NCBI GenBank assembly: GCA_016870395.1
Contig: VGBT01000019.1
Location: 1 to 49,742, forward strand
Source of the DNA: Actinomycetota bacterium
GTDB lineage: Bacteria > Actinomycetota > Acidimicrobiia > IMCC26256 > JAENVU01
DNA: 49,742 nucleotides
Direction: 5' to 3'
The position numbers were made by a program, and so were the translations under genes. Positions within the stretch are counted from its first letter, which is position 1. The number at the start of each line of letters is the position of its first letter. The notes beneath the pieces were generated by a model. The model was not told the origin of the DNA, did no database searches, and was given only the letters and a program-made list of their open reading frames with translations. Positions 13,477-43,257 of this stretch are shown piece by piece.

Positions 13477-14778
13477 ATGCTTTCCCGCCTGCGGAACATG
13501 TTCCGGGTGCCGGACCTACGCAACAAGATCCTGTTCACGATCGCGATCGTGCTGTGCTACCGCCTGGGCACGCATATCCCGGTGCCGTACGTCGACTTCG
13601 ACCAGATCCAGAACCTGAAGGACCAGTCCACCAACCAGGGTGTCGTCGGCTTCCTCGACCTCTTCTCCGGTGGCGCGATCTCGAGTGTGTCGATCTTCTT
13701 CCTCGGGATCATGCCGTACATCACGGCATCGATCATCATGCAGCTGCTCGGGGTGGTCATTCCGAAGCTCGAGCAGTGGCAGCAGGAAGGCCAGGCCGGC
13801 CAGAAGAAGATCACCCAGTGGACGCGCTACGTCACGGTCGCGCTCGCGGTGCTCCAGTCGACCGGCTTCGTCTTCGCGCTGAAGGACGGCCAGCAGGGGT
13901 TGCTCGGCTTCGCGGGCTTCGAGGGTACCAACATGATCCCGGGGTTCAACGGGTGGCGAGCCGCGCTGATCGTGTTGACCTGGACCGCGGGCACCGCGCT
14001 CGTGATGTGGCTCGGTGAGCTGATCACCCAGCGCGGCGTCGGCAACGGGATGTCGATCCTCATCTTCGCGTCGGTGGTGTCAGGCCTGCCCTCCGCGGGC
14101 GCCCTCATCTACAAGGAAGCGGGCGTCTTCAAGTTCGCCGTCGTCATGGCGATCGGTGTCGGGATGATCGCGGCGATCGTGTTCGTGGAGTCGGGACAGC
14201 GGCGCATCCCGGTGCAGTTCGCCAAGCGCGTGGTGGGGCGGCGCATGTACGGTGGCCAGAGCACCTACATCCCGCTGAAGGTCAACCAGGCGGGGGTCAT
14301 CCCGGTGATCTTCGCGAGCTCGATCCTCGCGTTCCCGGCGCTCATCGCCACCGCGACGAACTGGAACGTGCTCCAGGACTTCGTCAACGACTACCTGGTG
14401 CAGTCCGACAGCTTCGTCTACATCGGCCTCTACACGCTGCTCATCCTGTTCTTCGCGTACTTCTACACGGCGATCGCGTTCAACCCGGCGCGACAGGCCG
14501 ACCTCATCCGCAAGCAGGGGGGCTTCATCCCCGGGATCCGGCCGGGTCCGCCGACCGAGAAGTACCTCGCCAAGGTGCTCAACCGGATCACTCTGCCGGG
14601 GGCCATGTTCCTCGCCGCGGTAGCGTTGACTCCGTTGCTCGTGTTCGCGCTGTGGAACATCTCTCAGTTCCCGTTCGGGGGTACCGCGTTGCTGATCACC
14701 GTCGGCGTGGCGCTGGAGACGATGAAGCAGATCGACTCGCAGCTCATGATGCGCAACTACGAGGGCTTCCTCTCCTGA
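13477..14778 (+). CDS. secY: Preprotein translocase subunit SecY
   Basis: SecY (433 aa), the ten-helix channel of the Sec translocon. MLSRLRNMFRVPDLRNKILF begins the protein. TM segments span it, and cytosolic loops carry the usual ribosome and SecA contacts (for example KQGGFIPGIRPG). A strong ribosome binding site (AGGAGGT at 13461-13467) precedes the ATG after a 45-base gap. adk follows after 4 bases. Confidence 0.98.
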   Translation: MLSRLRNMFRVPDLRNKILFTIAIVLCYRLGTHIPVPYVDFDQIQNLKDQSTNQGVVGFLDLFSGGAISSVSIFFLGIMPYITASIIMQLLGVVIPKLEQWQQEGQAGQKKITQWTRYVTVALAVLQSTGFVFALKDGQQGLLGFAGFEGTNMIPGFNGWRAALIVLTWTAGTALVMWLGELITQRGVGNGMSILIFASVVSGLPSAGALIYKEAGVFKFAVVMAIGVGMIAAIVFVESGQRRIPVQFAKRVVGRRMYGGQSTYIPLKVNQAGVIPVIFASSILAFPALIATATNWNVLQDFVNDYLVQSDSFVYIGLYTLLILFFAYFYTAIAFNPARQADLIRKQGGFIPGIRPGPPTEKYLAKVLNRITLPGAMFLAAVALTPLLVFALWNISQFPFGGTALLITVGVALETMKQIDSQLMMRNYEGFLS

Positions 14779-15390: not shown

Positions 15391-16050
15391 GTGGTGACCA
15401 GAAAGCGGCGGGACCAGATCGCGTTGATGCGCCGCGCCGGTCTGGTGGTAGCGGAGATGCACGAGTGCTCCGCCCGCGTGGTCCGGCCCAGAGCGACGAC
15501 CGCGGAGGTGGATCGGGTGGCCCGAGAGGTGCTCGAGCGTCGGGGGGCCCGGTCGAGCTTCCTCGGCTACCACGAGTTCCCGGCCGTGATCTGCACGTCG
15601 CCCAACGACGTGATCGTGCACGGCATCCCCGGTCCGACGGTGCTCGAGGAGGGCGACATCCTTTCGATCGACTGCGGTGCCATCGTCTCGGGCTGGCACG
15701 CGGATGCCGCCGTGACCCTTCCCGTGGGCGCCGTGGGCGCGTCGGTGGAGGGCGCGGCGCTCGCGGCCGGGTTCACCCTGGTCCGCGAGTACGTGGGCCA
15801 CGGCATCGGCACCGCGATGCACGAGGAGCCCCAGATCCCGAACTACGCCGGCGGCCCGAACCGACGCTTCCGACTGCGCGAAGGCCATGTGCTGGCCATC
15901 GAGCCTATGGTGAACGCTGGCACCGGCGAGACCCGCGAGCTCGACGACGGCTGGACGGTGGTGACCGCCGACGGGCGTCGCTCCGCGCACTTCGAGCACA
16001 CCGTCGCGGTCACCGACCACGGGCCCGAGGTGCTGACGCTCCCCTGGTAG
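15391..16050 (+). CDS. map: Methionine aminopeptidase with 31-residue internal deletion
   Basis: Type I methionine aminopeptidase (219 aa), which removes N-terminal Met from new proteins. All five metal ligands are recognisable: D94 (SIDCG), D105 (WHADAAV), H137 (GHGIG), E171 (IEPM) and E202 (FEHT). H77 and H144 are also kept. Ligand spacing matches E. coli except D105-H137, which is 32 residues rather than 63. The missing part is the helical region between TLPVG and AGFTLVREY (near 15727-15771). The frame is intact. It is either a shortened or defective enzyme, or an assembly deletion. The start is GTG. Confidence 0.88.
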   Translation: MVTRKRRDQIALMRRAGLVVAEMHECSARVVRPRATTAEVDRVAREVLERRGARSSFLGYHEFPAVICTSPNDVIVHGIPGPTVLEEGDILSIDCGAIVSGWHADAAVTLPVGAVGASVEGAALAAGFTLVREYVGHGIGTAMHEEPQIPNYAGGPNRRFRLREGHVLAIEPMVNAGTGETRELDDGWTVVTADGRRSAHFEHTVAVTDHGPEVLTLPW

Positions 16051-30129: not shown

Positions 30130-30148
30130 CCCGGCGTTGGGTACGGCC

Positions 30149-30442
30149 GTGCACCCGTCCGAGAGCGCACCGAAGACCCAACGCTACGTCCGCTCACCGG
30201 GCGCGCTGGTGCGCGAAGGCGCCTTCGGTGTCGTCGTCCTCGGCACCGAGACCTCCGACGCGGTGACGCTCTCGGGCACTGCTGCGGCGCTCTGGGACGT
30301 CCTTGCCGACCCGCAGACGTCGACGGCGGTCGTCGACGTGCTCGCGGAGCAGTTCGGACTCGCCCCCGAGCGCGTTCGTCCCGACGTCGATTCGGCGTTG
30401 GAACAGCTGGTGCAGCTCGGTGCGCTGGAACGCCGCGCATGA
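30149..30442 (+). CDS. PqqD-like protein (RiPP recognition element fold)
   Basis: 97 aa. YVRSPGALVREGAFGVVVLG, then TLSGTAAALWDVLADPQT, then a helical C-terminus (VRPDVDSALEQLVQLGALE) match the small PqqD winged-helix family. Relatives bind leader peptides of ribosomally made peptides or act as peptide chaperones. The GTG at 30149 lies 19 bases after the kinase stop; a TTG at 30137 is possible. Its stop overlaps the nucleotidyltransferase start. The partner is unknown. Confidence 0.75.
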   Translation: MHPSESAPKTQRYVRSPGALVREGAFGVVVLGTETSDAVTLSGTAAALWDVLADPQTSTAVVDVLAEQFGLAPERVRPDVDSALEQLVQLGALERRA

Positions 30443-31539
30443 CCTTCGACACCCTGGGCACCATCGGCTCCTACGGACTCCCGGGAGCGGCGCCGGTCTC
30501 GATCGGGCCGCTCGGCGCGCCCGAATGGGGCTCGTTGCTGCGCGCCGCGGTCGACCAGCGAGCGGTTCCGCTCGTTGCGCATGCCGCGGCAGGGGGATGC
30601 CTCGAGACGTCCTCGGCCCAATGGGACGAGCTCACCTCCATGAACGAGCAGTCCATGCACGCATGCGTGCGCCTCGAGCGGGCCGCGCTCGAGGTGGTAT
30701 GGGTGCTCCGCGGTGCGGGAATCCCGCACCGGCTGCTCAAGGGAGCCGCGGTCGCCCACCTCGACTATCCGGACGCCTCGTGGCGTGCCTTCGGCGATGT
30801 CGACGTGCTCGTGCGCGCCGATCGCTATGACGACGCGATCCACGTTCTCGAGCGTCTCGGCGGACGTCGGCGCTACTCCGAGGTTCGCCCCGGGTTCGAC
30901 AGCCGCTGGGGAAAGGGCGCCTGCGTCGTTCTCGATCGCGGCGTCCAGGTCGACGTTCATCGGAGCTTCGTCGCTGGCCCCTTCGGTCTCACCATCGATC
31001 TCAACGACCTCTTCGCCGTTTCCGAAGCGGTGCTCCTCGGTGGTGTCGAGGTCGACGTGCTCTCGCGAGAGCACCGACTGCTGCACGCGTGCTACCACGC
31101 TCTGCTCGGCGACGCGCCGGCGCGCCTCGTGCCGTTGCGCGACGTGGCGCAGATGGCGCTGAGCGGAACGCGTGACTGGGAGGAGCTCTGGGGGTGCGCG
31201 AGCCGCTGGCACTCACGAGCCGTCGTTGCGCGTGCCATGCATGCGAGTGCCACAGCCATGAACGTGATCCTGCCCGAGCCGGCGCGCTCGTGGACGGTCG
31301 ACTACGTCGCCGACCGGTTCGAGGCGCGCTCTCTCGATGCGTATCTCGGTCCCGGTCGCTCGTACGCCCGTCAGATGGCGGCCGGGGTGCACGCGGTGCG
31401 CGGGCTCGGAGCCAAGCTTGCCTACGTGCGGTCCATGCTCGCGGTGGATGCCGACTACGCACGCCGCCACGACGGAGGGTACCGGCGGCGGGTACAGCGG
31501 GCTTGGCGTGCGCAGCGCAGCGCAGGGGCGGCCCGATGA
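30439..31539 (+). CDS. Nucleotidyltransferase-family protein (PF14907-like)
   Basis: 366 aa. The motif HRLLKGAAVAHLDYPD followed by FGDVDVLVR (D120, D122) is the active-site pattern of this uncharacterised nucleotidyltransferase family, seen in lasso-peptide and exopolysaccharide loci. The rest is helical. A small PqqD protein precedes it and an HprK-like kinase lies two genes downstream, the usual partners of this family. The reaction is not known; transfer of a nucleotide to a peptide or sugar is a guess. It overlaps its neighbours at ATGA. Confidence 0.75.
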   Translation: MTFDTLGTIGSYGLPGAAPVSIGPLGAPEWGSLLRAAVDQRAVPLVAHAAAGGCLETSSAQWDELTSMNEQSMHACVRLERAALEVVWVLRGAGIPHRLLKGAAVAHLDYPDASWRAFGDVDVLVRADRYDDAIHVLERLGGRRRYSEVRPGFDSRWGKGACVVLDRGVQVDVHRSFVAGPFGLTIDLNDLFAVSEAVLLGGVEVDVLSREHRLLHACYHALLGDAPARLVPLRDVAQMALSGTRDWEELWGCASRWHSRAVVARAMHASATAMNVILPEPARSWTVDYVADRFEARSLDAYLGPGRSYARQMAAGVHAVRGLGAKLAYVRSMLAVDADYARRHDGGYRRRVQRAWRAQRSAGAAR

Positions 31540-33104
31540 GCACCGACCGGTGGGCTGACCGCGACGTGTTGCCGCTCGCCAACGCGGAGCGGCTCGCGTG
31601 GCCGAAGGTGCGCACGTGGCCTCGGTACGTGATCGGGCTCGGCGCCGTGGCATACGTGGCGATGATCGTGATCGGCGTCGGCACCGGATCCTTCGAAACG
31701 CTGATGGCGGTCCCGCTGATCCCCGCTCTTGGCTATGCAACCTACTGGATCGCACGATCGGTCGCCCTTAGCGAGCACGACCACTCCATGATCGAGTTCA
31801 TCCTCGCGGCCTTCGCCGCCAAGATGATGGGAACGCTCCTGAGAGCGCTCGTAGTGAGCCAGCTCTACAACAACCAGTCGGATGCCTACGACTTCCACCT
31901 CTGGGGGCAATACTACGCACCGTACTTCCGGCGCCTCGACTTCTCTCAGGTGCCCTCCTTCAGCGGAACCGACTTCATGCGCGCGCTCAGCGGGATGGTG
32001 TACGCGGTCACGGGCTCCTCGAAGTTCAGTGGCGGGATCGTCTTTTCGTTCCTCTCGTTCCTCGGCTTGCTCCTGTGCTGGCGCGCCTTCCGACGCGCGA
32101 TTCCTGATGGTGACGGCTATCGATACGGCTTGCTCGTCCTCTTCCTCCCTTCGTTGCTCTACTGGCCGTCGTCGATGGGCAAGGAGGGATTCTGCCTCTT
32201 CGGGATCGGCGTGGCCTCGTACGGATTTGCGCGGATCCTGACTCGCAGGATTTTTTCGGGCCTCGCGCTCTTCGCGCTGGGCGTGTTCCTTCTCTCGCTC
32301 CTGCGACCTCACATCGCGCTCACGCTCTTTAGTGGTGCCGCGCTCGCCGCGGCGGTGGGGAAGTCCCGGTCCCCTGGGGCCAAGACGTCCCTCGTCCGTA
32401 TGGTGGTCTTCGGTGCTCTCATGGTGACGTGGACGATGCTCGCGTCGTCCACGTCGTCCTTCTTCGGGGTCCCGAGCCTGAATCAGGAATCGATGAACCA
32501 GATCCTCGGCGAAGCCGAGGGGAGAACCGACGAAGCCGGTTCCAAGTTCGAGCCGGCCTCGATGTCCCATCCCGCCACCGTGCCGCTCGCGGCCGTGACC
32601 GTGCTCTTCCGGCCGTTCCCGATCGAGGTCCACAGCCCCGTCGCTGCGGCGAGCGCACTGGAGGGCGTCTTCCTCTTCGGGCTGTGTTGCGTGTCGTGGC
32701 GACGGCTTAGGTCGATTCCGCGGTGCATGCGTGAGAGTCCGTACACCGCGTACTGCATCGGGGCCCTCGTCGCGTTCGTCTACGCGTTCTCGGCCTTCTC
32801 GAACTTCGGCATCTTGGCTCGCCAGCGGTCGCAATTTCTCCCGCTGTTCCTCGTCCTGGTCTGCCTCCCGGTGTGGACCCGAACTGACGCGCTGTCGACC
32901 GAGGAGGCACTCAGCGCTCGTGACGCGGATCCCGACGATCCGTATGCAGAGATGGTGGCGCCTCCCGTCTACCAGGAGATCCCTCCGGTCGACCCGTACG
33001 AGCACGTCGGTCCCGGCCCCGAGCCCTACGTCGTCGTCGACGAGGATCCGTACGCCCGCTTCGCCGATCCGGGCGCACCGGACACCCGTCGTGGCCGCGG
33101 CTGA
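31536..33104 (+). CDS. Polytopic membrane protein, candidate Wzy-type polymerase
   Basis: 522 aa with about ten TM helices and a long soluble loop after SSTSSFFGVPSLNQ. The C-terminal part has NFGILARQRSQFLPLFLVLV, the N-x-G-x-x-x-R-x-R pattern near the last helices of EPS polymerase and ligase-like proteins. An acidic, Pro/Tyr-rich cytosolic tail of about 70 residues follows. The start is the ATG at 31536, overlapping the preceding stop. Codon use is less GC-biased than in the neighbours, as often seen for polymerases. Function is inferred from topology and context. Confidence 0.65.
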   Translation: MSTDRWADRDVLPLANAERLAWPKVRTWPRYVIGLGAVAYVAMIVIGVGTGSFETLMAVPLIPALGYATYWIARSVALSEHDHSMIEFILAAFAAKMMGTLLRALVVSQLYNNQSDAYDFHLWGQYYAPYFRRLDFSQVPSFSGTDFMRALSGMVYAVTGSSKFSGGIVFSFLSFLGLLLCWRAFRRAIPDGDGYRYGLLVLFLPSLLYWPSSMGKEGFCLFGIGVASYGFARILTRRIFSGLALFALGVFLLSLLRPHIALTLFSGAALAAAVGKSRSPGAKTSLVRMVVFGALMVTWTMLASSTSSFFGVPSLNQESMNQILGEAEGRTDEAGSKFEPASMSHPATVPLAAVTVLFRPFPIEVHSPVAAASALEGVFLFGLCCVSWRRLRSIPRCMRESPYTAYCIGALVAFVYAFSAFSNFGILARQRSQFLPLFLVLVCLPVWTRTDALSTEEALSARDADPDDPYAEMVAPPVYQEIPPVDPYEHVGPGPEPYVVVDEDPYARFADPGAPDTRRGRG

Positions 33105-33978
33105 CCAAGCCGCGGCGGTACGGCGCGCGCTCGAGTCGTCCGGCTGGGCTCGCGGGTCGCGCCTGGCGCTGCTCGACTTCGACGTGACCACGTACAGCGA
33201 CGATCCTGCGGTCTTGGAGCTCGTCGACGCGCTCTACGGCGCGGTGTTGGCACCGGGCGTCGGCCACCACGTGCTCTCGTTGGGTCGCGCGTCCGACGGT
33301 GAGCGCGCCGGGGTCGTCGTCGCACTCGACGGCGTGCCGATCGTCCGGACGACGGCTCCGTCGATCGCCTTCGCGCATCTGGTGTTCGAGGCCAACCAGC
33401 AGGCGCTCCTGGCGACGAGCGGGGTGGTGCTCCACGCGGCTGCCGCGGTGCTGGGGAAGGTCGCCGTGGTGCTCCCGGGGCGGATGGGTGCCGGGAAGTC
33501 GACCTTGGTCGCGGGGCTCGCGGCCGCCGGGGCGGGATACCTGACCGACGAGATCGTGGCCCTCGCGCCGGAGAACGGGTGTGTCCGCCCCTATCCGAAG
33601 CCCGTGTCGCTCGGGATTCCGCCTCCGGAGCTCGACGGGATCACCCGGGGTGCTCCTGCCGGCGCGTCGGAGTACTTCACCGGCGTCCTCGTCCCTGCCC
33701 ACGCGCTGCCCGGGGGTGTCGGATCGCCGACACCGCCAGGTCTTGTCGTGCTGCCCACCTACGAGCCGGACGCTCCGGTCGCGGTGCAACGGCTCGATCC
33801 GGTCGAGTCGGTGGTGGCGCTGGCCGAGCACGCGTTCCATCTCGAACAGCCCGGTGGGTTGCGAGCGCTCGCCGAAGCGTTTCGGGACGTCCCGTGCTAC
33901 CGGCTCACGGGGGGCTCGCTGCCGGGCGCGGTCAACGCCGTGCACGAGCTGACCGGGCGGGCCGTGGCGTCGGCATGA
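33091..33978 (+). CDS. HprK-like kinase
   Basis: 295 aa. The HPr-kinase/phosphorylase-type P-loop domain is preceded by VVLHAAAAVLGKVAVVLPG. The P-loop is GRMGAGKSTLVAGL (K136), and YLTDEIVAL (D153, E154) is the catalytic acidic pair. In lasso-peptide loci such kinases phosphorylate a peptide; HprK-related kinase A/B families occur with PqqD proteins in polysaccharide loci. No HPr or PTS gene is nearby, so a catabolite-repression role is unlikely. The start is the GTG at 33091, overlapping the preceding gene by 14 bases. Confidence 0.8.
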   Translation: MAAADQAAAVRRALESSGWARGSRLALLDFDVTTYSDDPAVLELVDALYGAVLAPGVGHHVLSLGRASDGERAGVVVALDGVPIVRTTAPSIAFAHLVFEANQQALLATSGVVLHAAAAVLGKVAVVLPGRMGAGKSTLVAGLAAAGAGYLTDEIVALAPENGCVRPYPKPVSLGIPPPELDGITRGAPAGASEYFTGVLVPAHALPGGVGSPTPPGLVVLPTYEPDAPVAVQRLDPVESVVALAEHAFHLEQPGGLRALAEAFRDVPCYRLTGGSLPGAVNAVHELTGRAVASA

Positions 33979-35081
33979 CGAGCATCGCGTGTGCTCCCGG
34001 CGCACGCCCTCGCGCCCGGGGGCTCGAGGAGGCGGTTGGTGTCGACGGCGAGGTGCTCGTCGCCGCCGCCGGCGAGGTGCACGTCCTCACCCCCACGGCT
34101 GCATTGCTCTGGGAGTGCTGCGACGGCGAGGCCACCGTGGCCGAGCTCAGCGCGGAAGTCGCCGAGGTCTTCGATCAGGAGCAGGAGCAGGTGCTCTCCG
34201 AGGTCGTGGTGCTCGTCGGCGAGCTCGAGCAACGGGGCCTCGTCGTGCTCGAAGGTTCTGGTCAGGGTCCGCGCGAGCCCGCCCTCCTCGCACCGAGCGC
34301 GTCGTGCGCGAGCTGCGGCGAAGGCCCTGGGTTCGAGGCCACGGTGCACGTGGAGTTGGGCTCCGTCGTCGCCTCGATAGGGGCGGACGCCACGACCGCC
34401 CGGGCCATCGAGCGAGCGTTCGGAGGGCGCGTGGTGGAGCGAGCCGAAGCCACCGGTCCGCCCTTGTACGGCATCGTGCTGCCGGAAGCGCGGTCAGGTG
34501 CTAGGTCCACGCCGCTCGCGCGGCTGCATCGTGGGGAGGAGGTGCTGTGCACGAGCCGCGATCCCGGTCGAATCGTTCGGGCGCTCGCGGCCCAGCTCGC
34601 GATCCATGCTCTGCCGGCGCGCGCCGTACGTCTCGATTCGTTGGTCGTCGGGCGGGCCGGGCGGGCGGTGCTGGTCCCGGTGCCCCCGCGGCGCAGCGCC
34701 TTCCTGCGCCGCCTCGCCGCCGTGGGGTGCTGTGCCGCCGACGTTCCATCGGCATGCGTAGACCCGGCACCGTCGGCGTACGCGCTCGTCGGAGCTGCGC
34801 AGCTCGCCCTTGACCTCACCTCGCTCCTCGAGGTCGCTGCGGCGCGGCGCCTCCTCGACGGCGAGCCACCGGCGTTGCCCTGGGGCAACTACGAGATCGT
34901 AGCGGTCGCTACCAGCGGCGATCCCTCACCGGCGAGCGTGCTCGCGGAGCTCGTGCCGCTGAGACACGGGGCGGGGGACTCCGAGGCGGCGGCGGCGGTT
35001 CCTGTGCTGCTCGAGCTGCTCGACGCGGTACCGATCCTGACTGCGCACGATCTCGACGGCATTGCCGGGATCCTCACCTGA
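33975..35081 (+). CDS. PqqD domain fused to a degenerate HprK-like domain
   Basis: 368 aa. Residues 15-95 resemble PqqD (VLTPTAALLWECCDGEATVA...). A linker carries C111-x-x-C114. The C-terminal domain parallels the HprK-like fold: VRLDSLVVGRAGRAVLVPV aligns with the LHAAAAVLGKVAVVLPG part of the previous gene. Where that gene has GAGKST, this one has PPRRSAF (about 237-243), so ATP binding by the normal loop is unlikely. I read it as a catalytically dead partner or adaptor of the active kinase. The ATG overlaps the previous stop. Confidence 0.7.
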   Translation: MTSIACAPGARPRARGLEEAVGVDGEVLVAAAGEVHVLTPTAALLWECCDGEATVAELSAEVAEVFDQEQEQVLSEVVVLVGELEQRGLVVLEGSGQGPREPALLAPSASCASCGEGPGFEATVHVELGSVVASIGADATTARAIERAFGGRVVERAEATGPPLYGIVLPEARSGARSTPLARLHRGEEVLCTSRDPGRIVRALAAQLAIHALPARAVRLDSLVVGRAGRAVLVPVPPRRSAFLRRLAAVGCCAADVPSACVDPAPSAYALVGAAQLALDLTSLLEVAAARRLLDGEPPALPWGNYEIVAVATSGDPSPASVLAELVPLRHGAGDSEAAAAVPVLLELLDAVPILTAHDLDGIAGILT

Positions 35082-35108: not shown

Positions 35109-36404
35109 TCAGAGGATCTCGCCGCGTAGGTCGCGCCCGCGCAGCACGCCCTTCGTGTCGAAGACCAGGGGTGCGTGGCGACAGATCAGGTCCGGGTCGA
35201 ACTCTGGATGATCGACGAGCAGGATCGCAAGGTCGCACTGCTCGAGGCGCCGCGCGTCGAACGGCACCACGCTACACGGCAGGTCGGCATGCGCCGTCAC
35301 CGGGATGTGCGGGTCACACGCCTCGAGCGCCGCGCCGAGCGCGGCGAGGCGGTCGGCGACCACGACGCTCGGCGACTCCCGCCAGTCCGACGTGGAGGCC
35401 TTGTAGGCGACGCCGAGCAGGAGGATGCGCGTTCCCTGCACGGCCCGTCCATGACGATTGAGCAGGCCGGTGACCCGTCCGACTACGTGGTCGGGCATGT
35501 GCTCGTTCACGTCGTTGGCGAGCTCGACGAACCGGAACGTGTGTCCGGACCGTCTCCGCACGCGCCACGAGAGATAGGAGGGGTCGACGGGGAGGCAATG
35601 CCCGCCCACTCCCGGTCCGGGCGTGAAGCGCATGTAGCCGAACGGCTTGGTGGACGCGGCGTCGATCGCCGACCAGATGTCCACGCCGAGATCCTCGGCG
35701 AACATCGCCAGCTCGTTGACGAGCGCGATGTTCACGTGCCGGAAGGTGTTCTCCAGGAGCTTGACGAGCTCGGCCTCGGCGGGCGTGCCCACGGGCACGA
35801 CCTTGTCGACCAGCGCGCCGTAGAACGCCTCGACGACCCGACACGAGGCCTCGTCGAGGCCCGAGACCACCTTCGGGGTGTTCTGGAAGGTCCACTGGAT
35901 GTTGCCGGGATCGATCCGCTCCGGGGAGTAGCCGAGGAAGAAGTCGCGGCCGGCGAGCAGGCCCGACTCCTCGAGCACCGGCCTGACCAGCTCCTCGGTG
36001 GTACCCGGGTACGTCGTCGACTCCAGCACGACCAGCGCGCCGGCGCAGAGCACGGCGCTCAGTGCCCGAGCGGCCGACTCGACGTACGTGAGGTCGGGGC
36101 TGCCGTCTCGCAGCGGCGTGGGAACCGAGATCACGGCCACGTCGAAGCCGGCGAGGCCGTCCACGTCGTCGGTCACCGTGTAGCCCGCCGACAGGGCCGC
36201 CGCGACCTGCTCGTCCGGGACGTCTTCGACGTAGGAGTGGCCGTCGCGCAGGGCGCCGACCCGTCGCGGGTCGACGTCGAAGCCCACGACCGTGAAGCCG
36301 ACTTCGACGGCACGCATCGCGACCGGCAGCCCCACGTAGCCCTGGCCGACGATCATGACCTTGGCGGTGCGGTTCTCGATCCGCTCCAACACCGCTGTGC
36401 TCAC
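35109..36404 (-). CDS. UDP-sugar 6-dehydrogenase (WecC/WbpA/TuaD-type)
   Basis: 431 aa. The NAD-binding motif is VMIVGQGYVGLP (about 16-27), the central domain has TYPGTTEELVRPVLEE, the catalytic C270 lies in GPGVGGHCLPVDPSYLSW, and a UDP-binding C-terminal domain follows. The family oxidises C6 of UDP-GlcNAc, UDP-ManNAc or UDP-Glc in two NAD steps to the uronic acid. The sequence fits the HexNAc branch better, but the substrate is not proven. The GTG at 36404 overlaps the stop of the Tat protein gene. Confidence 0.9.
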   Translation of the reverse strand: MSTAVLERIENRTAKVMIVGQGYVGLPVAMRAVEVGFTVVGFDVDPRRVGALRDGHSYVEDVPDEQVAAALSAGYTVTDDVDGLAGFDVAVISVPTPLRDGSPDLTYVESAARALSAVLCAGALVVLESTTYPGTTEELVRPVLEESGLLAGRDFFLGYSPERIDPGNIQWTFQNTPKVVSGLDEASCRVVEAFYGALVDKVVPVGTPAEAELVKLLENTFRHVNIALVNELAMFAEDLGVDIWSAIDAASTKPFGYMRFTPGPGVGGHCLPVDPSYLSWRVRRRSGHTFRFVELANDVNEHMPDHVVGRVTGLLNRHGRAVQGTRILLLGVAYKASTSDWRESPSVVVADRLAALGAALEACDPHIPVTAHADLPCSVVPFDARRLEQCDLAILLVDHPEFDPDLICRHAPLVFDTKGVLRGRDLRGEIL

Positions 36405-37432
36405 AGCGGGCAGCAGTAGATCAGGTACACGGCGCTGATGCACGCGCCCTGTCCCGTTTGCTGGTTGATCGACGCTCGGCCGTCAGCGGAGACCAGCGCC
36501 GACGCGCCCTCGGTGTCGGGCGACACGGAGCCGTCGCCCGAGACCGTGCCCCCGTCGCTGGAGCCTCCCGACCCGCTGCCGTCCCCGGAGAGGTCCGTCG
36601 CGTCCTGCGCGCCGGCCGAGCTCGACGCCGAGAGACCGCCGGAGCTGACGGACTCGGACGCGCTCGGAGTTGTGGTGGTGGTCGTCGTGGTGGCCGGTAC
36701 CGGCCGACCGTCTGTGCCCAGTGAGCCGGGCACCGCGCTCGGCGCGCCGTCACTGGTGACCCGCCCGGAAGACTCGCGGTTCTGGCTCTTCGGCGGGCAC
36801 GGGAAGATGAGGCGGCGGCCCACGTCGATTCCATGGGGCGGCAAGGGGTCGACGTAGCCCTCGGCGAACACGCTGTCTTTGTACGAAAACGACTTGCGGC
36901 TCCAGCCGATCACCATGCGGCACTGGCGACCCGCGGCATTGGGACCGGTGACCTCCGGCAGCAGCAGCGCCCACGCGTTTTCACCCTTCTGGGTGAGCTG
37001 GGGGCATACGGCGGGGAACTTGAGGTCGATCGCGGGGTTGTCGCGCAGCCACTGCTCGATCGCGGGCGGCAGGCGGTCGACGCCGTGGAATATGTCCTCG
37101 CCGGTCTCGAAATCTTTGTAGGTCGGTCGCGTCGAGGGGTTGTGACCGGGAACGCCTTTGGGGATCACCGGCGGCCGACATCGCCCCGACGGCTTGATCA
37201 CGACGAAGTAGTAGTTGACGCATGGTTGTTCGGTGCCGTTGTTGGTCGTCGCGTACGCCACGCTGGAGCGGATCACCGGAGCGGCCCAGACGATGCCGGC
37301 CGCGACCGCTCCGCGCGCGAGCACCTCGCGTCTGGACAGGCCACCCCCTGTCGCTGAAACGTTCTCGCTCGACACCAGCTCGGCACCCCCAGAGCCAGGG
37401 TCCTCGAAAGGGCCGTGGCCGCCTGTTTCCAA
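36401..37432 (-). CDS. Tat-exported protein with Ser/Gly/Thr linker and Cys-rich C-terminus
   Basis: 343 aa by the TTG at 37432; GTG at 37375 is an alternative start. The twin-arginine motif SRREVLARG (about 33-41) and a hydrophobic stretch ending near VAYA form a Tat signal. Residues of about 66-215 are an unrecognised globular domain (GWSRKSFSYKDSVFAEGYV...). A Thr run and a Ser/Gly/Asp-rich low-complexity region then lead to ACISAVYLIYCCPL at the end. The terminal 14 residues are hydrophobic with three Cys. Function unknown. It is directly upstream of the UDP-sugar dehydrogenase with a GTGA overlap. Confidence 0.75.
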   Translation of the reverse strand: METGGHGPFEDPGSGGAELVSSENVSATGGGLSRREVLARGAVAAGIVWAAPVIRSSVAYATTNNGTEQPCVNYYFVVIKPSGRCRPPVIPKGVPGHNPSTRPTYKDFETGEDIFHGVDRLPPAIEQWLRDNPAIDLKFPAVCPQLTQKGENAWALLLPEVTGPNAAGRQCRMVIGWSRKSFSYKDSVFAEGYVDPLPPHGIDVGRRLIFPCPPKSQNRESSGRVTSDGAPSAVPGSLGTDGRPVPATTTTTTTTPSASESVSSGGLSASSSAGAQDATDLSGDGSGSGGSSDGGTVSGDGSVSPDTEGASALVSADGRASINQQTGQGACISAVYLIYCCPL

Positions 37433-42039: not shown

Positions 42040-42324
42040 TTGGTCGCCCTCGTAGTACCTCGGCGTGCCTCGCGCGCGCCCCGACCGTGGTGGTGCACCG
42101 TAGCCAAGCCCAAGGACGACACGATCCTCGTGGAGGGGACGGTCATCGAGCCGCTCCCCAACGCGATGTTCCGCGTCGAACTCGAGAACGGCCACAAGGT
42201 GTTGGCCCACATCTCCGGGAAGATGCGCATGCACTACATCCGCATCCTGCCCGGCGACAAGGTCCAGGTCGAGCTCACACCGTACGACCTGAGCCGCGGC
42301 CGCATCACGTACCGCTACAAGTAG
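42040..42324 (+). CDS. infA: Translation initiation factor IF-1, start codon problematic
   Basis: IF-1 OB fold: [40 protein letters not shown] and RGRITYRYK are diagnostic. Relatives begin with Met-Ala-Lys. Here the codon in the Met position (42100-42102) is GTA. The only canonical upstream start in frame is TTG at 42040, which would add 20 unconserved, Arg/Trp-rich residues and give 94 aa rather than about 74. The next canonical start, GTG at 42130, would cut the first beta strand. Coordinates follow the TTG. TAGCCT (42032-42037) may be a -10, in which case the mRNA could start after the TTG. Confidence 0.85.
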
Positions 42325-42350
42325 TCACCGAAGATCGAGAAGGCCCCGCG

Positions 42351-42464
42351 TTGAAGGTCCGTCCATCGGTCAAGAAGATGTGTGAGAAGTGCAAGGTGAT
42401 CCGCCGTCACGGTTCGGTGCGGGTCATCTGCGAGAACCCGCGCCACAAGCAGCGCCAGGGCTAG
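42351..42464 (+). CDS. rpmJ: 50S ribosomal protein L36
   Basis: L36 (37 aa) with a TTG start. [20 protein letters not shown] and C11, C14, C27 and H32 form the zinc-ribbon of the C+ type. It lies between infA and rpsM in the standard order, 26 bases after infA and 9 bases before rpsM. Confidence 0.95.
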
Positions 42465-42473
42465 GAGAACCCG

Positions 42474-42851
42474 TTGGCTCGAATCGCCGGTGTCGACATC
42501 CCCCGCGAGAAGCGGTTGGAGATCTCGCTCACCTATATCTTCGGCATCGGTCGCTCGACGGCCAAGCTCGTCTGCGAGCAGACCGGCCTTTCACCCGATA
42601 CCCGCGTGCGCGACCTCACCGAGGAAGAGGTGGCCCAGCTCCGGTCGTTCATCGACGCGAACCTCAAGATCGAGGGTGACCTGCGGCGCGAGGTCTCGGG
42701 GCACATCAAGCGCAAGATGGAGATCGGCACGTACCAGGGGGTCCGCCACCGACGCGGCCTCCCGGTGCGGGGCCAGCGGACGCGCACCAACGCGCGGACG
42801 CGCAAGGGACCGAAGAAGACCGTCGCGGGCAAGAAGAAGGCCCGGAAGTAG
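42474..42851 (+). CDS. rpsM: 30S ribosomal protein S13
   Basis: S13 (125 aa), head protein contacting tRNA and forming bridges to the 50[21 protein letters not shown] fixes the TTG start at 42474, with AGGAG upstream. [19 protein letters not shown] is the conserved C-terminal segment. Confidence 0.97.
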
Positions 42852-42858
42852 GGGAACG

Positions 42859-43257
42859 GTGGCGAAACCAGCAGCAGGCGGACGTAGGCCGCGACGTCGT
42901 GAGCGCAAGAACGTCACGCACGGCATCGCGCACATCAAGTCGTCCTTCAACAACACGATCATCACCATCTCCGACCAGCAGGGCAACACGCTCGCCTGGG
43001 CTTCGTCGGGCAACGTGGGCTTCAAGGGCTCCCGTAAGAGCACGCCGTTCGCGGCGCAGCTCGCGGCCGAGACCGCGGCCCGCCGCGCCATGGAGCACGG
43101 CGTCCGCCGGGTCGACGTGGTGGTGAAGGGTCCCGGGTCGGGTCGGGAGACCGCGATCCGCTCCATCCAGAACACCGGCATCGAGGTGCTCGGCATCAAG
43201 GACATCACCCCGATCCCGCACAACGGATGCCGCCCTCCCAAGAGGAGACGCGTGTAA
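42859..43257 (+). CDS. rpsK: 30S ribosomal protein S11
   Basis: S11 (132 aa), platform protein near the Shine-Dalgarno duplex. [20 protein letters not shown] and [16 protein letters not shown] are diagnostic. GTG start with GGGGAAC upstream. Its TAA shares one base with the rpsD ATG. Confidence 0.97.

Follow-up and report, generated by a model that had tools for sequence, protein, structure and literature searches.

Downstream of an HprK-like kinase gene, an Actinomycetota bacterium encodes a protein in which a PqqD (RRE) domain is fused to a degenerate copy of the kinase. We analyzed this gene within a stretch of 49,742 nucleotides (contig VGBT01000019.1; hereafter the window) and found that kinase and fusion protein belong to one operon in a polysaccharide locus, that the degenerate copy has lost its P-loop and that, among related genomes, it co-occurs with a secreted protein carrying a twin-arginine (Tat) signal. 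With modest confidence, we favor the reading that this locus encodes an RRE-guided HprK kinase system resembling those of linear polyphosphorylated peptides (LPP), in which the RRE-pseudokinase would dock Tat cargo for modification before export.

Genomic organization and distribution of the locus

The features of the locus are summarized in Table 1. The start of the fusion gene overlaps the stop codon of the kinase gene (ATGA), and in sufficiently long loci the gene order is BY-kinase-like protein, small PqqD, NTP_transf_5, membrane protein, kinase and PqqD-pseudokinase. The first of these genes, for which Pfam matches are weak, is presumably BY-kinase-like. Among the order-level loci, the membrane protein sits between the transferase and the kinase. 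When the small PqqD protein was compared with the PDB, the best match was 9x8z (E 0.021), which is the LPP RRE LppB. The surroundings comprise genes for a nucleotide-sugar dehydrogenase, a Polysacc_synt_2 protein, a DegT aminotransferase and glycosyltransferases. This polysaccharide and kinase island occupies an unusual place, since it is flanked by secY/methionine aminopeptidase genes and by infA- and rpsM-like ORFs, the last two recognized by eye (13477-14778, 15391-16050, 42040-43257).

Table 1. Coordinates of the features discussed in the text (positions in the window)
Feature	Position	Strand	Evidence
Stand-alone small PqqD/RRE (start codon uncertain)	30134..30442	+	Pfam PF05402 E 4.5e-13
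NTP_transf_5 nucleotidyltransferase	30439..31539	+	Pfam PF14907 E 1.2e-33
Multi-pass membrane protein, no Pfam match	31536..33104	+	homologues 41-53% identical at the same place
HprK-like kinase, 295 aa, intact P-loop	33091..33978	+	TIGR04352 E 2e-22; AlphaFold; Foldseek
Kinase P-loop GRMGAGKST, residues 130-138	33478..33504	+	no variation at G135 and K136 among 18 kinases
PqqD/RRE domain plus degenerate HprK-like (pseudokinase) domain in one protein, 368 aa	33975..35081	+	
PqqD (RRE) domain of the fusion	34068..34244	+	Pfam PF05402 E 7e-12; family-based genome search
CxxC (C111, C114), interdomain linker	34305..34316	+	kept in 8/9 homologues; pLDDT <50
Pseudo-HprK domain, residues 119-368	34329..35078	+	hhalign to kinases; VIA-align to 2qmh
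Degenerate P-loop PVPPRRSAF, residues 235-243 of the fusion	34677..34703	+	
Nucleotide-sugar dehydrogenase, neighbour	35109..36443	-	TIGR03026 E 2.9e-113
Tat-signal secreted protein, 343 aa, likely client	36401..37432	-	no Pfam family
WAAPVI in the Tat signal	37271..37288	-	matches RRE-binding motif [Y/W]xxPx[L/V/I/F/A]
C-terminal tail LIYCCPL of the Tat protein	36404..36424	-	conserved

The genome from which the window originates is 98.9% complete. It carries one HprK-like kinase, two PqqD domains and, according to a search with a short leader query, one Tat leader of the WxxP type, and all of these are located inside the window. Among 58 genomes of the order, 20 gave some match to the fusion protein; 9 of these matches were at the PqqD level only, and in 11 genomes the homology extended over both parts or covered the pseudokinase part. 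A contig scan with the 33975-35081 protein as query found no relative. In addition to IMCC26256 (CP011489.1), a repeated scan with the homologue from locus L027 retrieved three MAG loci that are near-identical, plus two weak matches at the PqqD level. The IMCC26256 homologue is 100% identical to that of genome G008. A further homologue, which shares 83% identity with the IMCC26256 protein, was found in a MAG labelled Bifidobacterium breve (L176, CAMDSG010000012.1), and this label is probably wrong. Searches of phages, plasmids and PHROGs for fusion homologues gave no match, so that we see no sign of a phage or plasmid origin.

The fusion protein consists of a PqqD domain and a degenerate HprK-like domain

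Residues 33-90 of the fusion protein scored 45.9 bits against the Pfam PqqD family, which is above the curated cut-off of 23.4, and no family match was obtained in Pfam or NCBIfam for the remaining C-terminal residues (about 250). In structural comparison (VIA-align), the N-terminal part adopts the winged-helix RRE fold with Z 9.6 to the leader-bound RREs 6jx3 and 5v1u over 83-84 residues. A sequence profile search gave a consistent result, in that the PqqD profile also matched lasso RREs and both RREs of PMC13381572. The two domains are connected by a low-confidence linker (residues 96-118), which contains C111 and C114.

Pairwise BLASTP of the fusion protein against the adjacent kinase did not yield a match (best E 1.1), so that profiles were needed to judge whether the two sequences can be aligned, as had been claimed from inspection by eye. 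With hhalign, residues 115-368 of nine homologues aligned to nine adjacent kinases with a score of 30.1 over 259 columns; the corresponding controls reached at most 6.2 (30 column-shuffled kinase profiles) and 3.7 (reversed profile). For 15 pseudo-domains and 17 kinases, the probability was 97.5 and the score 87.7, and 40 shuffles gave at most 17.8. When enlarged profiles were used, pseudo-domains from other families matched the kinase profile with E-values down to 1e-15, and active kinases matched the pseudokinase profile with E-values of 5e-8 and 2e-11.

A template-free AlphaFold model of the fusion protein (mean pLDDT 79.8) was searched with Foldseek. Here, the N-terminal part retrieved PqqD and leader-bound RREs and the C-terminal part HprK/P chains, the E-values for the latter being weak (0.037 at best). 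VIA-align superimposed residues 216-368 on HprK/P 2qmh with Z 7.7 and an rmsd of 4.1 for 112 aligned residues. This Z-value is in the middling range of the program, in which values below 8 are weak if standing alone, and other HprK/P entries as well as PEPCK gave values below those for 2qmh. From the element lists of the two models, it can be seen that the secondary-structure elements of fusion and kinase follow a matching order: two strands, a helix, strands, a long helix, two strands, the P-loop position and a helix. Both models share a C-terminal strand-helix-helix-strand-helix order, and the pseudo-domain has a shorter stretch in place of kinase residues 159-215.

Taken together, these data confirm that the C-terminal domain of the fusion protein is a degenerate HprK-like kinase of the HprK fold family. 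The first-pass annotation, which had been made by inspection of the sequence, had described a PqqD domain fused to a pseudo-HprK domain beside an active HprK-like paralogue, a peptide-recognition role of the former and a CxxC pair between the two. The domain assignment is confirmed by the Pfam, profile-profile and structure matches, the recognition role gains support from the similarity to leader-binding RREs in sequence and structure, and the cysteine pair corresponds to C111/C114. The C-terminal 220 residues had been named as the place where an unrelated fold might turn up, and when this was checked the model matched HprK/P and no such fold emerged.

The adjacent kinase is intact and its copy has lost the active site

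Against the NCBIfam model for HprK-related kinase A (TIGR04352), the kinase scored 79.6 bits, which is below the equivalog cut-off of 200; judged from this score, it is a relative and does not belong to the equivalog. Its AlphaFold model is confident (pLDDT 92.9, pTM 0.90) and matched PEPCK and HprK/P in Foldseek with E-values down to 4.4e-06 (3tqf: E 1.1e-4, prob 1.00). The sequence contains a GxxxxGK[ST] P-loop followed downstream by a DE pair, and across 18 kinases H115, G135, K136, G147 and D153 are invariant and E154 nearly so.

In the profile alignment, the kinase GRMGAGKST is placed opposite PVPPRRSAF of the fusion protein, just as the by-eye alignment had it. The pseudo-domains retain an aspartate at the D153 position (D256, invariant in nine homologues) and lack the histidine, the lysine and the glutamate of the kinase. 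Over all fetched loci, the P-loop motif was present in 46/50 kinase ORFs and in none of the 32 pseudokinase ORFs, and thus the pseudo-HprK status assigned to a single protein holds family-wide. Although the fold is kept, few pseudo-domain residues are invariant.

Association of the pseudokinase with PqqD domains and intact kinases

PqqD is fused to 16 of the 32 pseudokinases and 14 more have a PqqD domain on the same strand at a distance of at most 300 bases. The two pseudokinases with neither arrangement are those of L026, which is cut by the contig end, and of L070. An intact kinase is present within the fetched stretch in 22/30 pseudokinase loci. The eight remaining loci include two on short contigs (L026, L033), one (L074) whose genome, G365, has kinases elsewhere, and five of family f101. 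Genome-wide searches of the five f101 genomes (61-89% complete) found no separate kinase, but only the pseudokinases themselves or nothing. The f101 loci (L101-L105) contain PqqD and pseudokinase genes, and in some of them (L102, L103) a Tat leader adjoins.

From the proximity of an active kinase and an inactive copy, the first-pass annotation had suggested an adaptor or heterodimer arrangement, and we infer the same. The 22 loci with an intact kinase speak for a pairing of the two proteins; family f101, in which no separate kinase was found, speaks against it and argues against an obligate kinase partner. A rather unlikely alternative is that the RRE-pseudokinase is a regulator, which either lowers or raises the activity of the kinase, e.g., as a member of the kinase oligomer, while the RRE senses free precursor. 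Retention of the pseudokinase beside the intact enzyme in these 22 loci would fit such a role, and few invariant residues on a conserved fold are what one expects of an interaction surface. However, no separate kinase that could be regulated was found in the f101 genomes, and active HprK-like kinases that share one ORF with a PqqD domain exist (L066, L111, L142), which points to docking as the common need. Such kinases suggest that in the pseudokinase fusion the same need is met by a second subunit.

A Tat-signal protein is the likely client

The protein encoded by 36401-37432, which the first-pass annotation had missed, lies two genes away from the fusion gene. Its signal sequence, SRREVLARGAVAAGIVWAAP, consists of a twin-arginine followed by a hydrophobic stretch, as in Tat substrates, and the arginine pair is invariant in 11 aligned leaders. 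Among the 58 genomes of the order, this protein is present in exactly the 11 that carry the pseudokinase and in 0/47 others, counts that take sister species singly without a tree, so that p-values derived from them are inflated. These 11 genomes belong to four families, one of which also has members without both genes. We consider this Tat protein the likely client of the RRE/kinase system, a conclusion inferred from its position, its co-occurrence and its leader.

Two other conserved elements were seen in this protein. All eight homologues that reach the stop codon end with [LV][IV]YCxP, 0-1 residue before the stop; in the window protein and in the homologues of L023, L025, L026, L027, L029, L031 and L032, a long low-complexity linker precedes this conserved tail. 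Elsewhere, a strand and CC form the end of some Tat proteins, which are encoded next to PqqD/HprK loci or away from them (e.g., L126, L134). The exact LIYCxP tail, conserved in the eight order-level homologues, was not found in 15 remote loci scanned, whereas the WxxP leader recurs remotely, and we set the tail aside as RRE site. Following the Tat signal, the homologues carry a GTExPC-like sequence (GTEQPC, GTERPC, GTEIPC, GTVRPC), and this mature N-terminus is a possible candidate for the modification site.

WxxP Tat leaders recur near PqqD and pseudokinase genes

Eleven leaders from different families share the pattern RRxxLxR...WxxP, in which R6, R7, R12, W21 and P24 are invariant, and outside the order the mature parts behind them are unrelated. 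A profile built from six order-level leaders only matched in 10 of 22 loci chosen for their PqqD/pseudokinase genes (no match in the other 12) and in 0/20 control stretches (291 kb vs. 343 kb for the loci), which were drawn from 20 of the 22 genomes involved. Fisher's test, with sister genomes included, gave 0.0006.

A wider profile was then applied to the whole class. After removal of 14 of the 91 matches, which had been used for the profile or were homologous to the window Tat protein, at least 20 of the remaining 77 leader matches were located within 10 kb of a PqqD/pseudokinase match (0.75 expected) and at least 15 within 2 kb (0.15 expected). With kinship ignored, PqqD/pseudokinase was present among the matches listed in 41/62 leader-positive genomes and in 46/333 others. 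The 21 leader-positive genomes without PqqD among the matches listed (5 with WxxP, 16 without) were searched directly, and here PqqD was detected in 4/5 genomes with WxxP vs. 2/16 without (Fisher 0.011). The single WxxP genome without PqqD (G340) is 78% complete. When genomes with neither a leader nor a PqqD match were searched, 1/24 had PqqD. The follow-up included 16 stretches from 15 genomes, and G005 yielded a spurious match only. Thus, the ordinary Tat signals in this data set lack the motif, and WxxP signals go together with PqqD.

In stretches containing PqqD/kinase genes, [WY]xxP is present in 37/42 leaders, each of which has L, V, I, F, A or M two positions downstream of the proline. 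Methionine occurs there twice and is outside the published motif [Y/W]xxPx[L/V/I/F/A] (PMC13381572). The value of 37/42 is an illustration and not a test, since many loci were chosen by their leaders and the signals are hydrophobic at this position anyway. Where neither PqqD nor kinase was detected in the stretch, 17/22 leaders carry WxxP.

The recurrence of these leaders bears on two other explanations of the locus. According to the first, the system is an ordinary small RiPP cluster, whose client is a short unannotated precursor peptide, and the Tat protein is a mere neighbour in the polysaccharide locus. It is true that LPP and paeninodin-type clusters, whose precursors are short peptides, are built around PqqD, an HprK-like kinase and an NTP transferase (PMC13381572). 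However, WxxP Tat leaders recur beside PqqD/HprK genes in several families in front of unrelated mature domains, and the Tat protein tracks the pseudokinase (11 of 58 genomes, 0 of the other 47), so that we regard this explanation as quite improbable. Still more improbable is the second, in which the HprK-like enzyme would act on an intermediate of polysaccharide synthesis, either a sugar or a lipid, and PqqD would have a structural role. Polysaccharide genes all around the operon would suit this option (Polysacc_synt_2, DegT aminotransferase, glycosyltransferases, nucleotide-sugar dehydrogenase). To our knowledge, however, the PqqD/RRE domains that have been studied are peptide binders, which counts against such a substrate, and so does the fact that the PqqD profile also matches leader-bound RREs. 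In addition, several PqqD/HprK loci elsewhere are accompanied by Tat leaders, and a search there for the membrane protein (31536..33104), the only polysaccharide-locus gene sought, detected no homologue.

Proposed mechanism

The reading we favor is that of a cargo-docking system. In this mechanism, the fusion protein would act as non-catalytic subunit, whose PqqD/RRE domain would grip WxxPxI in the Tat signal of the 36401-37432 protein. The pseudo-HprK domain would pair with the active kinase and thus bring the cargo to the active site, where the kinase may phosphorylate a hydroxyl residue of the cargo. The second RRE (30134-30442) might serve the NTP_transf_5 enzyme in a similar way. The Tat pathway carries folded proteins, which makes modification in the cytoplasm before export reasonable, and the folded, modified cargo would exit by this route to the cell surface. 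There, it may associate with the polysaccharide that the surrounding genes produce. What speaks against this reading is that the RRE leaders described so far are short peptide leaders and not Tat signals, that 12 of the 22 chosen loci gave no leader match, that 17 WxxP leaders are located where neither PqqD nor kinase was detected, and that f101 pseudokinases occur with no separate kinase found.

A more general proposal, on which our confidence is evenly divided, is that a Tat signal can double as a RiPP-type leader, that RREs hold folded Tat cargo by WxxPx[hydrophobic], that whole proteins thereby become substrates of HprK-like kinases and NTP transferases before export and that the RRE-pseudokinase is the subunit dedicated to docking. 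If this is true, exported proteins would be subject to RiPP-style modification and Tat quality control would take a new form, both widespread in this actinobacterial class. RREs that read Tat signals would extend RiPP chemistry from peptides to folded secreted proteins and would provide a candidate modifying enzyme for uncharacterized WxxP Tat proteins. For the question of what HprK-like kinases and NTP transferases contribute to polysaccharide loci, the present locus offers a specific, testable client and motif. Its pseudokinase subunit would separate docking from catalysis.

Comparison with known systems

HprK/P and the adjacent kinase have the fold and the H...GKS...DE order in common, and the fused copy differs from HprK/P by the lack of a P-loop. 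The N-terminal part of HprK/P is different from that of the kinase. The HPr-rel-A system of NCBIfam (TIGR04352 kinase, TIGR04353 PqqD) involves the same pair of families, but kinase and PqqD both score below the curated cut-offs (PqqD vs. TIGR04353: E 6.6e-05).

TorD and DmsD are chaperones that bind Tat signals. They may be compared with the fusion protein as cytoplasmic binders of a Tat signal during cargo maturation, but this likeness would be functional only; their fold is unrelated and the binder here is an RRE. In a literature search covering titles and abstract openings, neither an RRE reading a Tat signal nor an RRE-pseudo-HprK fusion was described.

Paeninodin-type lasso peptides share with the window an RRE, an HprK-like kinase, an NTP transferase and a WxxP leader (as described in PMC13381572). 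They involve a macrolactam synthetase and a B2 protease, neither of which was found among the window proteins scanned, and the candidate cargo of the window is not a short peptide.

Closest to the window are the LPP clusters (lppA-K-B-S-D-N), which combine RREs with HprK-like kinases and are located in capsule loci (Popov et al., 2026, Nat Commun, PMC13381572). As described there, the LPP kinase adds several phosphates to one serine, the NTP transferase is uncharacterized, and the RREs of LPP and lasso peptides bind the leader motif [Y/W]xxPx[L/V/I/F/A], the aromatic residue of which occupies one pocket, the proline and the hydrophobic residue being placed in a second (PDB 9x8z and 9x90). On this basis, LPP clusters and the window have in common a discrete RRE, an HprK-like kinase, an NTP transferase, the capsular polysaccharide locus and a [Y/W]xxPx[hydrophobic] leader motif, and in neither was a macrolactam cyclase seen. 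A Pfam scan of 27 window proteins found no SipW-like signal peptidase and no MsbA-like transporter, both of which are part of the LPP clusters. The LPP precursor comprises 35-200 aa with a YxxPxVLxHQ leader, and the window candidate comprises 343 aa with WAAPVI in its Tat signal. Thus, two features set the window apart from the LPP kind: the leader is part of a Tat signal, behind which follows a protein several hundred residues long, and one of the RREs is joined to a dead copy of the kinase.
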